Positions 6,069 through 12,785 of a stretch of DNA of 14,455 bases are shown in pieces. Source of the stretch: Fibrobacter sp. (GTDB lineage: Bacteria > Fibrobacterota > Fibrobacteria > Fibrobacterales > Fibrobacteraceae); contig JABUUR010000149.1 in the NCBI GenBank assembly GCA_021443065.1, forward strand, positions 1-14,455, in the 5' to 3' direction. The first letter of the stretch is position 1. Each line of letters begins with the position of its first letter. The notes below the pieces were generated by a model. It worked only from the letters and a program-made list of their open reading frames with translations, was not told the DNA's origin and did not search any database. A program made the translations under genes and the position numbers.

Positions 6069-6809
6069 ATGAAAAAAATGCTTTTGGCCCTTTGCGCCGC
6101 CGGTTTGATGGCTTCCATGACCGCCTGTAACGACACGATGGATCCCAACGATCCCGCTTCTGTCCGTAAGTACCTTACCAAGCAGCAGATTGCCTTTACC
6201 CCTAACCAGTTCGTCTCCTTCGCGGTCAATAGCGACACTGCCAAGATGACCTTGTTCCTCCAGGCTTCCTTCGAAATTGACCAGCCGGCAGACAACGGCA
6301 ACAATGCTGTGGCAATTGCCGCCAACAAGGGCAACCTCATGGTTCTCAACTACCTCTTCGACCACGGTGCCAAGGCCAATGTCCGTAACGGCAACGGCGA
6401 AGCAGTCATCGACAACGCTGTCATGATGGGCAACAAAGATGTGGTCGTGCGTCTCCTGGAACAGTTGAAGAAAGAAGGCATTGACTCCCAGACTTTGGGT
6501 ACCGCAGTTCTTTTGGCTGCAAAGACTGGCAAGGTTGACATGCTGGAAATTCTTGCCGATGCCGGCGCCTCCCTGGAAACCCGTAGCCCCGACGGCTACC
6601 TGCCTATCCATTGGACTGTCAAGAACGGCAACTACGATGCCATGATGTTCTTGATCGGCAAGGGCGTAGATGTCAATGCCAAGTGCGGCCAGGGTTACTC
6701 TGTCATGGACTGGGCTACCAACGAAGGCTACACCCGTCTGATCAAGGAACTGAAGAAGAAGGGTGCAAAGAACACCCCGCAGTACTTCAAGGATATCAAG
6801 GGCAAGTAA
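6069..6809 (+). CDS. Ankyrin-repeat lipoprotein
   Basis: 246 residues. The N-terminus MKKMLLALCAAGLMASMTAC is a lipoprotein signal peptide ending at C20. The lipobox MTAC has Met instead of the usual Leu at -3. From about residue 45 to 235 there are around six ankyrin-type helical repeats, seen in phrases such as 'GNNAVAIAANKGNLMVLNYLFDHGA', 'AVLLAAKTGKVDMLEILADAGA' and 'GYLPIHWTVKNGNYDAMMFLIGKGVDVNAK' (shown here as pattern only). Such repeats bind proteins; the partner is unknown. The mature protein should be anchored in the periplasm or outer membrane. It stands alone, with a terminator directly after it. Codon use is of the highly biased kind (many AAG, AAC, GGC, CTC), suggesting good expression. 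Confidence 0.85.
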   Translation: MKKMLLALCAAGLMASMTACNDTMDPNDPASVRKYLTKQQIAFTPNQFVSFAVNSDTAKMTLFLQASFEIDQPADNGNNAVAIAANKGNLMVLNYLFDHGAKANVRNGNGEAVIDNAVMMGNKDVVVRLLEQLKKEGIDSQTLGTAVLLAAKTGKVDMLEILADAGASLETRSPDGYLPIHWTVKNGNYDAMMFLIGKGVDVNAKCGQGYSVMDWATNEGYTRLIKELKKKGAKNTPQYFKDIKGK

Positions 6810-6841
6810 TTTTAACGGTCGACCAAGGCCTTAACCCATAT

Positions 6842-6876
6842 AAAGAACTTCCCTTGTGCGGGAGGTTCTTTTTTTT
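6842..6876 (+). terminator. Rho-independent terminator of the ankyrin lipoprotein gene
   Basis: AGAACTTCCC (6844-6853) pairs with GGGAGGTTCT (6860-6869), with one G-U pair and a 6-nt loop. An eight-T run (6869-6876) follows. The flanking A residues extend the stem into the U-tract. It lies 33 nt after the stop codon. Confidence 0.85.
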
Positions 6877-6880
6877 GCCC

Positions 6881-7027
6881 TGTCATCCCGGCCTCCGTTG
6901 TACTGTCCTCCCGGGCTTGCCCCGGGATCACCGTCCCGCATTGTCATCCCGGGCTTGCCCCGGGATCTCCCCTTCCGCTGTCCTCCCGGGCGCCGCACAC
7001 TGTCATCCCGGGCTTGACCCGGGATCT
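6881..7027. repeat. Cluster of REP-like GC palindromes
   Basis: Four to five related elements of the type tgtcatcccgggcttgcc followed by ccgggatc lie between the terminator and the TonB cluster. They are: a truncated copy at 6881-6892, a full copy at ~6904-6929 (tgtcctc variant), a full copy at 6942-6967, a truncated copy at 6980-6992, and a full copy at 7001-7027 with 'cttgaccc'. Each full copy can fold through CCCGGG pairing across a short loop. Spacers between copies are irregular, unlike the array at 10587-11118. These look like dispersed extragenic palindromes; no protein-coding content is seen. Confidence 0.8.
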
Positions 7028-7067
7028 CTAATCCTGAGACCTGTCAACGTCTGTTAACTAACCCTTT

Positions 7068-9472: not shown

Positions 9473-10177
9473 ATGGTTCCTGTCGTAGACCAGAATTCCA
9501 TTCTTGAAGCAGCCTTCGGCATCCTCTTCAGGGGAGGCTGGGTGCTCGCCCCGATTTTTGCGTTGGGGTGGTTCGGGTGGTTTTTGATGCTGGAACGTTA
9601 CGGCTACTATTTTATGCTTCGGGGAAAGTCCTCGGCCTCCTTCTGGCACAACCTGAAAAAGAAGGGTGAGGATGTGGCCTTCGACAAGTTGAGCCGCCGC
9701 CCCTACGGGTATTTCTATGCCCTGGTGAAGGATGTCCGGGACCATCGTCACGAAGGTCCTGTGGCAGTCCGAAACGCCATGGAGGCAACCCGCCACCGCA
9801 TATCCTTGAACCTTTCCAAGTCCCTCAAGACGATTTCCACATGTGCAGCACTTGCCCCCATGATGGGGCTGCTGGGAACGGTGTCTGGCATGGTGCATAC
9901 CTTTGAGACTATCCAACTTTTTGGTTTCGGAAACCCGGTACTCTTGGCCGATGGCATTTCCGAAGCGTTGCTTACCACACAGGCAGGCCTGTTGGTGGCT
10001 TTCCCCCTGATGCTTGCCTACAATTACCTGAATGGCTGCGTTTCCAAGGTCGAAGACCTGGCCTGGAGCGAGGCCCTGAAATTTGAATCCATTGTTTTTG
10101 ATTCCGTAAACCGTTCGGAGGAATCCGGGTGTAGTAATTTGCAAGGCGGAGAAGAACCTGGTGAGGTTGCAAAATGA
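9473..10177 (+). CDS. exbB: ExbB/MotA/TolQ-type proton channel subunit
   Basis: 234 residues, the size of ExbB2-type proteins. Three membrane segments lie at about 22-41, 119-142 and 158-186. The family core is clear in 'CAALAPMMGLLGTVSGMVHTF' and 'ISEALLTTQAGLLVAFPLM', which line the proton path with ExbD. There is no signal peptide. It forms a pentamer around an ExbD dimer in known systems. The gene starts 7 nt after the TtpC-like gene with AAGG 5 nt before the ATG, and its stop overlaps the exbD start as ATGA. The C-terminal ~20 residues are polar and unlike ExbB. Being the second channel subunit in the cluster, it is the classical ExbB, while the preceding gene supplies the TtpC role. Confidence 0.92.
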   Translation: MVPVVDQNSILEAAFGILFRGGWVLAPIFALGWFGWFLMLERYGYYFMLRGKSSASFWHNLKKKGEDVAFDKLSRRPYGYFYALVKDVRDHRHEGPVAVRNAMEATRHRISLNLSKSLKTISTCAALAPMMGLLGTVSGMVHTFETIQLFGFGNPVLLADGISEALLTTQAGLLVAFPLMLAYNYLNGCVSKVEDLAWSEALKFESIVFDSVNRSEESGCSNLQGGEEPGEVAK

Positions 10178-10578
10178 GTTTTATTAGAAAAAGAAGCCGG
10201 GAGGCCGGCGGCATTGATGTATCCCCCATGCTGGACATGGTGTTTATCTTGCTGATTTTCTTTATTGTGACTTCTACGTTTACCCGGGAGACCGGCGTGG
10301 ACGTGACCAAGCCCAAGGCAAGTTCCGCAAAGGAACTGGCAAAAGAAAGCATTTTGATTGGCGTGACCCGTCAGGGGACCATCCATATCAACGAAACCCA
10401 GGTGAACTTGACCACGTTGAATACGGTGCTTCGCCAGATGATGGCCGAAGCACCCGACCGTCCTGTAATCATCGTCAGCGATCGCGATGCCCCCAATGGA
10501 GTTGTGGTGGACATACTCGACGAATGTAACCTGGCCAAGGTCCGAAAAGTATCCATATCCGCCAATAAGGAAGAATAA
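10174..10578 (+). CDS. exbD: ExbD/TolR-type proton channel subunit
   Basis: 134 residues, normal for ExbD. A short basic cytoplasmic N-terminus leads into the signature 'IDVSPMLDMVFILLIFFIVT'; D21 corresponds to the proton-carrying Asp25 of E. coli ExbD. A single membrane segment (about 19-37) is followed by a periplasmic ExbD/TolR domain ('ILIGVTRQGTIHINE', 'DRPVIIVSDRDAPNGVVVDIL'). GTGAGG lies 7 nt before the ATG, and the ATGA overlap with exbB implies coupled translation. The gene is followed not by tonB directly but by the 56-bp repeat array, starting 9 nt after the stop. Confidence 0.94.
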   Translation: MSFIRKRSREAGGIDVSPMLDMVFILLIFFIVTSTFTRETGVDVTKPKASSAKELAKESILIGVTRQGTIHINETQVNLTTLNTVLRQMMAEAPDRPVIIVSDRDAPNGVVVDILDECNLAKVRKVSISANKEE

Positions 10579-10586
10579 ACCACCAA

Positions 10587-11118
10587 CAGTCCCCGGGCTT
10601 GCCCCGGGCCCCAAGGAAACCCAAACGTAGAACCTTTAAACTGTCATCCCGGGCATGCCCCGGCCCTCAAGGAAAACCAAACGTAGAACCTTTAAACTGT
10701 CATCCCGGACTTGCCCCGAGACCCAAGGAAAACCAGACGTAGAACCTTTAAACTGTCATCCCGGGCATGCCCCGGCCCCCAAGGAAAACCAGACGTAGAA
10801 CCTTTAAACTGTCATCCCGGGCTTGCCCCGGCCCCCAAGGAAACCCAAACGTAGAACCTTTAAACAGTCATCCCGGGCATATCCCGGACCCCAAGGAAAA
10901 CCAGACGTAGAACCTTTAAACTGTCATCCCGGGCTTGCCCCGGACCCCAAGGAAACCCAGACGTACAACCTTTAAACTGTCATCCCGGGCTTGCCCCGGA
11001 CCCCAAGGAAAACCAGACGTAGAACCTTTAAACTGTCATCCCGGGCTTGCCCTGGGCCCCAAGGAAAACCAAACGTAGAACCTTTAAACTGTCATCCCGG
11101 GCTTGCCCCGGGATCCCC
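10587..11118. repeat. Tandem array of nine 56-bp units plus a half unit
   Basis: Units begin at 10587, 10641, 10697, 10753, 10809, 10865, 10921, 10977 and 11033; the final partial unit is 11089-11118. The first is 54 bp and the next eight are exactly 56 bp. Each has a GC-rich half (ctgtcatcccgggcttgccc then cgg) and an A-rich half (ccccaaggaaaaccagacg then tagaacctttaaa). Differences are scattered point changes, for instance gggcatgccc versus gggcttgccc. Every unit can form a CCCGGG/CCGGGG hairpin. The last half unit ends in ccgggatcccc, exactly like the solo palindromes at 6881-7027. The array fills the whole 550-bp gap between exbD and tonB and contains no credible gene. Confidence 0.95.
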
Positions 11119-11128
11119 TTGAAAAAAA

Positions 11129-11785
11129 ATGAAGCACTTCTCATTCACAGATTTCATGGCCAAGTATTTCCGCTATCCTGTGGCAATCGTGCTCTCCTTC
11201 GTTGTGAGCGCAGTGTTCTTCCTTGCCGTTCCTGTGTTGAATGTGCTGCTTTTCGATAAGGGTGTCAAGACAGAAAAAGAACTGGAGTCCGTCACAGAAG
11301 TCGAGGTCCTTGTGAGCGAAAAGAAACCCGAGGTAAAACAGAAGGTGTTGCGTACGGTGGTAAATCCCAACCCCTTCAAGATTTCATCTAACATGGGGAC
11401 CAGCCGAAGAGAGAATTTTTCAATGGATTTGTCCCTGGCCCGAGGTGCTGCAGGAGATGGTGTTGCCGTGGGTACCGGCGGTATGGAAAATGTGGTTTAC
11501 GAAGCCGGCGAAGTGGATGAACAGGCTCAGGTTTTACGTGAGGTCCAGCCCAAGTTTCCTGAACGAGCCAAGCGCATAGGAGTGAACGGCTACGTAAAGG
11601 TCTTGATGGTGATTGACGTTTATGGCGATGTGGCCCAGACCCAGGTGCTGACTCTGGATCCGCCGGGTTACGGCTTTGAGACGGAAGCCCTGAATGCCGT
11701 ACGGCAGTGGAAGTTCAGCCCGGCGCAACTTGGCGGCTATCCGGTGGCCCAAAAGGCCACAAAGGAGTTCCGCTTTGTCAAGTAA
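11129..11785 (+). CDS. tonB: TonB energy-transducing protein
   Basis: 218 residues. One membrane anchor lies at about 17-41. A periplasmic linker of ~90 residues follows, then a TonB C-terminal domain (about 135-218) with 'VQPKFPERAKRIGVNGYVKV', 'VIDVYGDVAQTQVLTLDPPG' and 'FETEALNAVRQWKFSPA'. TonB carries inner-membrane proton energy to TonB-dependent outer-membrane receptors. The linker is short and lacks the Pro-Lys/Pro-Glu repeats of E. coli TonB; it is Gly/Ala/Val-rich near 105-125 instead. Such short TonB2-like proteins usually work with TtpC. The ATG follows seven A residues, with no Shine-Dalgarno sequence, and lies only 10 nt after the repeat array. Its stop overlaps the start of the TPR gene. 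Confidence 0.92.
   Translation: MKHFSFTDFMAKYFRYPVAIVLSFVVSAVFFLAVPVLNVLLFDKGVKTEKELESVTEVEVLVSEKKPEVKQKVLRTVVNPNPFKISSNMGTSRRENFSMDLSLARGAAGDGVAVGTGGMENVVYEAGEVDEQAQVLREVQPKFPERAKRIGVNGYVKVLMVIDVYGDVAQTQVLTLDPPGYGFETEALNAVRQWKFSPAQLGGYPVAQKATKEFRFVK
11761..11777 (+). promoter_or_regulatory. Ribosome binding site and TTG start of the TPR gene
   Basis: AAAGGAG (11761-11767), within the last codons of tonB, lies 7 nt before TTG at 11775-11777. No ATG or GTG in this frame gives a sensible signal peptide with a site of this quality. The overlap of 11 nt with tonB suggests translational coupling. Confidence 0.75.
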
Positions 11786-12785
11786 AAGACAATTTTATTT
11801 CGTTCAACGAACGAGGCTCTCCCTTGTCCTTTTGCTGTTGCTTATGCTGTCGTCTTTTGCGACGGCCGCCGACGATTATTTTTTCAAGGCCAACGAACTT
11901 TATGACCAGGGCCGCTACAAGGAGTCGGTACCCATGTACCGTGCCGCCATAGACGAAGGCCGTTACGAGCCTTTCGCCTGGTTCAACCTGGGTAACGCTT
12001 TGGTGCAACTGGGCCGTAAGGAGGTTGCCCTGGTGGCGTACAAGCGTACCGTGGAACTGTTGCCCAATTTTGAAAAAGCCTGGATGCTCATGGGGGACAT
12101 TTACTACCTGGCGGGGGATGCCGGCGAAGCCATTGCCGCCTACAAGCGGGCCGTAGAACTGGGGGTGGAATCGGACCATGTGCACTTTGCCCTGGCGGAG
12201 TGCTACATGAAGGGTAGGGATTGGACGCTTGCGCAGAAAAACTTTGAAAAGGCCCTGCAGTTAAATCCAGACCGTATGGACGCCTGGTATGGGCTGGCCG
12301 AAGTATACGAAAAACTGGGCGATTATGAATACGCCATCAAGACCTTGCAGAACGCCTTGCAAATGACGGCGACCGCCGGCGCGGACGTCCACTTTACCAT
12401 GGCCTATTACTACCGCAGCATGGATTCTACCAAGAAGTCCTTGAACGAAATGGAAAACGGGCTCTTGATGGAACCAGAAAATGTTTCTGCCCGCCGTTAC
12501 TTGGCTCAGATGTACGTGAAGACAGCTTCTCCCTGGATGGCCATATTCACTCTTGAAGAAGGCCTGCGGCACAACAAGGGTAAGGCTGACTTGAACTTGG
12601 ATCTTGGACAAATCTATTTTACCCAAAAGCGTTATGACGAGGCTTTCGAATGCTACATGAAGGCCTGGCTCGATGGAAATTCCCAGGGGCGCATTGGCGC
12701 CGAGAACGTGGGACACGTGTTTTCCAACGCCGGGGATACGGAAAAAGCCGAAAGCCTGTACAGGCGAATCCGCGAAAAGAAATAG
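11775..12785 (+). CDS. Secreted tetratricopeptide-repeat protein of the TonB cluster
   Basis: 336 residues from a TTG start. A classic signal peptide (basic start MSSKRQFYFVQRTR, Leu-rich core, cleavage near ATAA, residue ~30) is followed by about nine 34-residue TPR motifs filling the rest of the protein. Examples are 'AWFNLGNALVQLGRKEVALV', 'AWYGLAEVYEKLGDYEYAIK' and 'LDLGQIYFTQKRYDEAFECY'. TPR solenoids bind other proteins. A TPR protein at the end of ttpC-exbB-exbD-tonB operons is a recurring arrangement, and in Vibrio TonB2 loci an associated TPR protein is known, so a role as a periplasmic partner of TonB is likely. The tonB overlap fixes it in the same transcript. A longer reading frame from an ATG at 11694 lies wholly inside tonB and lacks a signal peptide at its start, so it was not used. 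Confidence 0.85.
   Translation: MSSKRQFYFVQRTRLSLVLLLLLMLSSFATAADDYFFKANELYDQGRYKESVPMYRAAIDEGRYEPFAWFNLGNALVQLGRKEVALVAYKRTVELLPNFEKAWMLMGDIYYLAGDAGEAIAAYKRAVELGVESDHVHFALAECYMKGRDWTLAQKNFEKALQLNPDRMDAWYGLAEVYEKLGDYEYAIKTLQNALQMTATAGADVHFTMAYYYRSMDSTKKSLNEMENGLLMEPENVSARRYLAQMYVKTASPWMAIFTLEEGLRHNKGKADLNLDLGQIYFTQKRYDEAFECYMKAWLDGNSQGRIGAENVGHVFSNAGDTEKAESLYRRIREKK

Follow-up and report, generated by a model that had tools for sequence, protein, structure and literature searches.

The window analyzed here, a 14,455-nt stretch of Fibrobacter sp. DNA, contains a tight operon in which exbD (10174..10578, + strand; Pfam ExbD, 2.7e-30) is followed by tonB (11129..11785, + strand; Pfam TonB_C, 4e-16; ATG start). 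The exbD stop at 10578 and the tonB ATG at 11129 are separated by a gap of 550 nt, whereas the three operon junctions upstream measure -4, +7, and -4 nt. The gap is occupied by a tandem array on the + strand (10592..11111) with a 56-bp unit in 9.3 copies, which was the single array detected by Tandem Repeats Finder in the window (period 56, 91% matches, 0% indels). When the units were tabulated, ten palindrome cores were located at 10592 + 56n with zero slip. An array in exact 56-bp register, placed at the one open junction of an otherwise closely packed operon, is what the original prediction had described, and both parts of that description were borne out. Two other identities were considered and rejected. 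A CRISPR array was ruled out because the nine spacer copies are alike save for point differences, and a coding repeat was ruled out because 56 is not divisible by 3 and no ORF of at least 80 aa runs across the array.

The palindrome at the center of each unit has the form TGTC-AT-CCCGGG-CTTGM-CCCGGG-AT. The tag ahead of the stem is TGTC in eight of the ten array units and AGTC in units 1 and 6, and the loops of the array palindromes are 5 nt long (CTTGC, CATGC, CATAT). The units have 49-54 of 56 bases in common and no two are identical. The first palindrome core (10592..10607, + strand) has a left flank, CACCAACAGTC, that is unlike that of the other nine units, and it is followed by the first inter-core segment (10608..10647, + strand), whose 25-nt stretch AAGGAAANCCARACGTAGAACCTTT is confined to the array. 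The terminal palindrome GTCATCCCGGGCTTGCCCCGGGATC (11091..11115, + strand) is the sole unit with an intact 8-bp stem, and identical copies of it are scattered elsewhere in the assembly.

A search of the assembly with the palindrome pattern GTCATCCCGGNCNNNNNCCGGNATC, allowing up to two mismatches, returned 117 + 74 = 191 matches, the array units among them, and the reversed-pattern control returned 0 matches in the same assembly. Comparison genomes were drawn from Fibrobacter or Fibrobacterales. The palindrome was matched in 60 of 61 genus genomes, including the source genome, which had the highest count (191, followed by 77, 76, and 68). A stem-agnostic search was also carried out, in which GTC-N8-CTTGN-N8-C sites were collected from 1.11 Mb of Fibrobacter DNA, our own sample included. 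Of these sites, 26/84 pair at 7-8 of the 8 stem positions, as compared to 0/100 sites of a reversed control motif. Stem pairs 3, 6, and 8 carry both-sided changes in this test; pair 1 is AT and pair 2 is TA in 26 of 27 elements. Within a 321,045-base sample of the source genome (20 stretches and the window, about one seventh of the genome), we found 30 perfect 8-bp elements, all with AT-initial stems, and 0 in one shuffle per sequence. When ORFs of at least 120 aa were assigned with a simple caller, 10 of the 11 one-strand clusters of elements lie on the strand of the ORF whose 3' end precedes them, and three further clusters are mixed. Its sequence and distribution place the palindrome among the dispersed REP-type elements that carry a TGTC/CGTC tag. 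Since the family is dispersed genome-wide, nothing about the palindrome is TonB-specific.

The window itself holds a second REP cluster (6905..7027, + strand), which consists of three elements on one strand between an ankyrin gene and a DUF3450 gene. In an ORF across this cluster (6611-7057), which is likely spurious, the palindromes are translated as CHPG.. peptides. In addition, 22-23-bp tandem runs that contain the palindrome left half and spacer only were observed in L190 (17193-17249), L195 (17399-17459), and L207 (7684-7764), and from their look it is as if half-elements also multiply.

The CGTC REP superfamily, as surveyed by Di Nocera et al. (2013, PMC3733652), is described as having an unpaired CGTC tag with TGTC and CCTC variants, of which TGTC is common, an 8-9 bp stem with AT in the first two positions, a loop of 4-5 nt, and a tail that is mostly CCA. 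These REPs are reported there as high in copy number, mostly intergenic, and near gene 3' ends, with no associated transposase found; their neighbors are mostly head-to-head, and head-to-tail dimers are called negligible (PMC3733652). By this described anatomy, and not by consensus sequences, the Fibrobacter elements are alike in the TGTC tag, the AT-initial 8-bp stem, the 5-nt loop, and the C-initial tail, and they share the high copy number, the mostly intergenic position near gene 3' ends, and the lack of an associated transposase, as judged here from PF01797 matches in a 70% complete genome and across 61 genus genomes. Compared with the survey's account (PMC3733652), CTC takes the place of CCA as the prevailing tail in Fibrobacter (first base C in 30/30 perfect elements, CTC in 16/30, CCA in 0/30) and the loops extend to 6 nt (5 nt in 21/30 and 6 nt in 9/30). 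The orientation of neighbors differs as well: pairs within 150 nt are dominantly head-to-tail in the Fibrobacter sample (22/32, or 16/26 when the present array is left out), an arrangement described as negligible for CGTC REPs (PMC3733652), although neighbor orientation is a typical trait of the class and does not strictly define it. Within the array, the intact stem of the CGTC class is found in unit 10 only. The phylum of Fibrobacter lies outside the five named for CGTC repeats in the survey, and the word Fibrobacter is absent from its main text (PMC3733652). The papers returned by a literature search included none on REPs in Fibrobacter; one of them, on a Caldithrix genome, contains both terms.

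The remainder of the unit is a spacer of ∼34 nt. All nine assembly matches to its 25-nt pattern lie inside the array and, among 80 genus genomes, the spacer was found in the source genome only (0 in the other 79). Units 2-10 have a common left flank and units 1-9 a common right flank, apart from point differences, and an intact right arm is kept in the last palindrome only. The array both begins and ends on a palindrome core, and the closing core makes up the extra 0.3 copy, which would be expected of a tandem duplication that started from two adjacent REPs. Tandem arrays by their nature end in an incomplete copy, and what is telling here is solely that this copy coincides with the REP core. 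The 321,045-base sample contains five further tandem arrays that bear the element and differ in period. Their periods are 39 (C7), 40 (C14), and 61 (C17), a mixed 57/80 (C6) in an array that lies mostly on one strand with two elements opposite, and 110 (C6) in an array whose strands alternate and which is not head-to-tail. These features suggest that the array likely grew in place by slippage or recombination, a view drawn from one genome of the species. The founder state would have been two neighboring direct REPs with the spacer between them, and this pair may have seeded tandem duplication by replication slippage or unequal recombination. At the same junction, the close relative L115 (contig of G024:C10) has one intact REP between exbD and tonB. 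In the closest TonB relative, L114 (94%), and in L116 (92%), exbD and tonB are 6 nt apart and no REP is present, which counts against growth by this route, and a founder pair of REPs was present in none of the 49 exbD-tonB junctions described below.

A different route to the same arrangement would be repeated transposition of the REP by a RAYT-like Y1 transposase instead of local duplication. The GTAG-class REPs are hypothesized to be RAYT-mobilized (PMC3733652). We consider this route very unlikely here: the private spacer has been amplified together with the palindrome, no PF01797 match was found in the genome, which is 70% complete, and the presence of PF01797 across the genus has no association with the elements. 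The domain occurs in 20 of the 61 genus genomes, and element number is independent of it (medians 13.5 with and 19 without; Mann-Whitney p 0.56). Moreover, the element, searched with a loose pattern, was found at 1 of the 20 Y1 loci. Assignment to the GTAG REP/RAYT system was likewise rejected, given that the tag here is TGTC and that this incomplete genome has no Y1_Tnp match.

The quality of the assembly bears on whether the array exists as read. The source assembly is fragmented and MAG-like (535 contigs, 70% complete), and REPs appear to disturb assembly in this genome: 19 of the 27 REP clusters on contigs of known size lie less than 500 nt from a contig end, where 3.2 would be expected. 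REPs thus probably explain part of the fragmentation, and the count of 191 is likely an underestimate. These observations would favor the notion that a short-read assembler wrongly stacked a dispersed repeat. We regard such an artifact as highly improbable, since the spacer occurs at this locus alone, every unit differs from the others, and the exbD and tonB flanks are ordered as in relatives. Furthermore, exact repeats within the array reach 58 nt at most and no 77-mer occurs twice, which means that reads of at least 100 nt can order the units. Longer identical stretches in the array may have been collapsed during assembly.

To place the array in context, the operon was compared across 49 loci, which comprise the window and 48 of 54 relatives' loci; of the six left out, five belong to other phyla and one, L147, has no exbD. 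The relatives' duf-exbB1 and exbB1-exbB2 gaps were excluded because both proteins contain a DUF3450 domain and were confused by BLAST. The exbB2-exbD junction exceeds 3 nt in 0/49 loci, which argues against a general freedom of spacing within the operon. The tonB-tpr gap exceeds 30 nt in 4/50 loci; the constant value of -92 obtained for this gap reflects an ORF start placed too far upstream, and its constancy alone was used. The exbD-tonB gap, with corrected starts, exceeds 30 nt in 26/49 loci. Across the genus, this junction is either overlapping or at most 6 nt long, or it is opened, mostly by unrelated fillers. Fillers of at least 30 nt fall into ten classes by BLAST linkage (L118 and L160 excluded), seven of which have hits elsewhere in the pooled loci. 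Near-identical proteins can be associated with different fillers, for example L140 as compared to L148/L149, in a tree without support values. Besides the window and L115, GTCAT-type palindromes are found at the exbD-tonB junctions of L130, L142, L146, and L090.

Other contents of the junction were also noted. The gaps of L117, L122, L126, L155, L148, L149, L158, L159, and L161 contain unrelated repeat fillers, which are either TAACCACTAACC-type runs or have AGACGAAAG-like starts with TCGTCT-rich ends, and both classes recur in the pooled loci. In L145 (and L107), the gap is 865 nt and its beginning reads as a lipoprotein-like peptide.

The end of exbD carries a feature that is relevant to the translation of tonB. 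The last exbD codons of the window, AATAAGGAAGAATAA, hold the Shine-Dalgarno (SD)-type motif AAGGAAG, and one of AAGGAGG, AAGGAAG, AAAGAGG, or GAGAGG is located within the last 18 nt of exbD in 48/48 loci scored (L121 was unscored). In L114-L162, the end codons, mostly Asn-Lys-Glu-Glu, double as an AAGGAGG-like motif that lies close before tonB if the junction is compact. Loci were classified as compact (gap up to 6 nt, n = 13) or open (gap of 10 nt or more, n = 36). An SD-like 4-mer is present at -17 to -4 of tonB in 13/13 compact loci and in 4/36 open loci, the window not being among these four. Counting distinct junctions only, the values are 9/9 and 4/35, and the loci are related. The lack of an SD sequence before tonB, which had also been predicted, was confirmed: the ATG is preceded by CCCCTTGAAAAAAA, with no SD-like 4-mer ahead of it. 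Such a start is not peculiar to this genome, as 32 of the 36 open loci are likewise without an SD-like 4-mer. Because the motif resides in the exbD end and is near tonB in compact loci, the array separates tonB from it. The starts of tonB in compact loci are GTG (8), TTG (2), and ATG (3), and those chosen in open loci are all ATG; the script gave preference to this codon, and manual correction was applied to five starts (window, L118, L119, L160, and L121). Where TAG overlaps the start, the codon can only be GTG, so that this difference in start codons is not independent evidence of compensation.

These comparisons allow for a broader proposal, in which repeats would have landed and expanded at this junction time after time, on each occasion breaking the SD and start-stop coupling embedded in exbD. 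Repeat arrays would then act as an evolutionary switch that frees TonB from ExbD synthesis, with the present nine-unit array as the most extreme repeat form. We put this forward tentatively and consider it rather unlikely to be correct.

The original prediction also held that the array, if transcribed, would give nine to ten hairpins in the mRNA, and folding did not support strong serial hairpins. The predicted fold of the transcript from 10579 to 11140 has an energy of -138.8 kcal/mol with a z-score of +1.53, and 94 of 100 shuffled sequences were at least as stable. Folded singly, units 1-9 range from -5.6 (unit 3, which has a broken core) to -11.6 kcal/mol, with z-scores of +0.50 to -0.40, and the terminal palindrome reaches -14.2 kcal/mol (z -2.15). 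Hence, of the foldable palindrome that had been assigned to each unit, the tenth stands as a full 8-bp hairpin, and units 1-9 are not clearly better than shuffles. Units 1-9 no longer have their outer stem pairs, such that nine of the ten hairpins are eroded. Together with the poor fold of the array as a whole, this loss speaks against selection for serial hairpins. Terminator-like sites, defined by a GC hairpin and a T-run, were not found in 10592-11111; two were found, both in exbD. A series of intrinsic terminators was rejected because the array contains no T-run. A search for sigma-70-like promoters gave 0 in 10100-11800, and Rfam gave 0 matches in the window.

These data bear directly on whether the array is a selected RNA control device, in which hairpins in the polycistronic mRNA would reduce tonB compared with exbBD or shield the 3' end of exbD, with the ratio tuned by the number of copies. 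REPs within operons can influence mRNA decay, the array occupies the only exb-tonB junction in the window that is open, and the terminal palindrome folds well. We nevertheless find such a device unlikely, because the whole array folds no better than shuffles, the erosion of units 1-9 is the opposite of what selection for hairpins would produce, the array has no terminator-like site, and orthologous junctions contain unrelated sequences or almost none. The original prediction was right that the array has the potential to affect tonB relative to exbBD. Specific hairpin regulation by the array is not supported, and from sequence we expect that its effect on TonB output would be at most modest and passive, with no dedicated regulatory device.

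An SD-like 4-mer stands ahead of 83 of 246 first-ATG ORFs in this genome (at least 200 aa, uncurated), as compared to 45 after shuffling. Such moderate use of SD sequences in the genus suggests that the loss of the motif may cost tonB little, and since SD-less starts are common (163/246), a start of this kind is not by itself a defect. This is consistent with the array being neutral REP debris that affects neither gene, ahead of a tonB start that is SD-independent. The five further element-bearing arrays in the sample and the different fillers of close relatives agree with neutrality; however, a compact junction that keeps the motif in range is found repeatedly in the genus (13/49 loci), and the exbB2-exbD junction is never opened. 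We consider neutrality possible, if somewhat doubtful; it posits the same origin for the array as the explanation that we favor, with which its probability overlaps.

The favored explanation, which we judge probable, is that the array consists of units of a REP and a private spacer that grew in place and separate tonB from the SD-like motif of exbD. It draws on a structured dispersed family, a unique spacer, array ends that fall on a core, five other arrays, and a variable junction, all of which are demonstrated. In the proposed mechanism, the array would be transcribed within the exbBD-tonB mRNA and would cut tonB off from the SD-like motif inside the exbD end, and translation of tonB would start independently, at its A-rich ATG.

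Scattered REPs and tandem rows of similar repeats are already known in other bacteria. Bacterial minisatellite or VNTR loci consist of direct repeats, each some tens of bp long, that lie in a gap between genes and may vary in copy number. They resemble the array as intergenic direct repeats, but in the array a dispersed REP forms the core of each unit and also marks the end of the row. REP or BIME elements are also found inside E. coli operons such as malE-malF, where palindromes lie between co-transcribed genes. The BIMEs alternate in orientation (PMC2817692), whereas the Fibrobacter array is unidirectional and its stems are eroded. The closest published case of form is that of Pseudomonas fluorescens SBW25, for which ordered tandem repeats of near-identical REP-containing units with their flanks are described, and for which the authors inferred a second mechanism of cluster formation (Bertels and Rainey 2011, PMC3116915). 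Both consist of tandem REP-containing units with flanking sequence. The SBW25 clusters, as described, are formed of REPs or REPINs in a genome with RAYTs and have fewer, longer units, the largest REPIN cluster being four REPINs and a REP over >700 bp (PMC3116915). Unlike these, the array is made of single TGTC-tagged palindromes in 9.3 × 56 bp and lies inside an operon.

With these elements, TGTC/CGTC-tagged REPs are extended to Fibrobacter, a genus that is unnamed in the main text of the class survey (PMC3733652), and to the described features of the class they add a preference for head-to-tail neighbors, which the survey treats as negligible (PMC3733652). The array is also a clean case of how tandem REP arrays may originate, given its private spacer, its palindrome ends, and the further arrays of this genome, which have spacers of their own. 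Finally, because exbD and tonB are fused in some related species and opened by unrelated sequences in others, this junction offers a direct test of how repeats between genes influence translational coupling.
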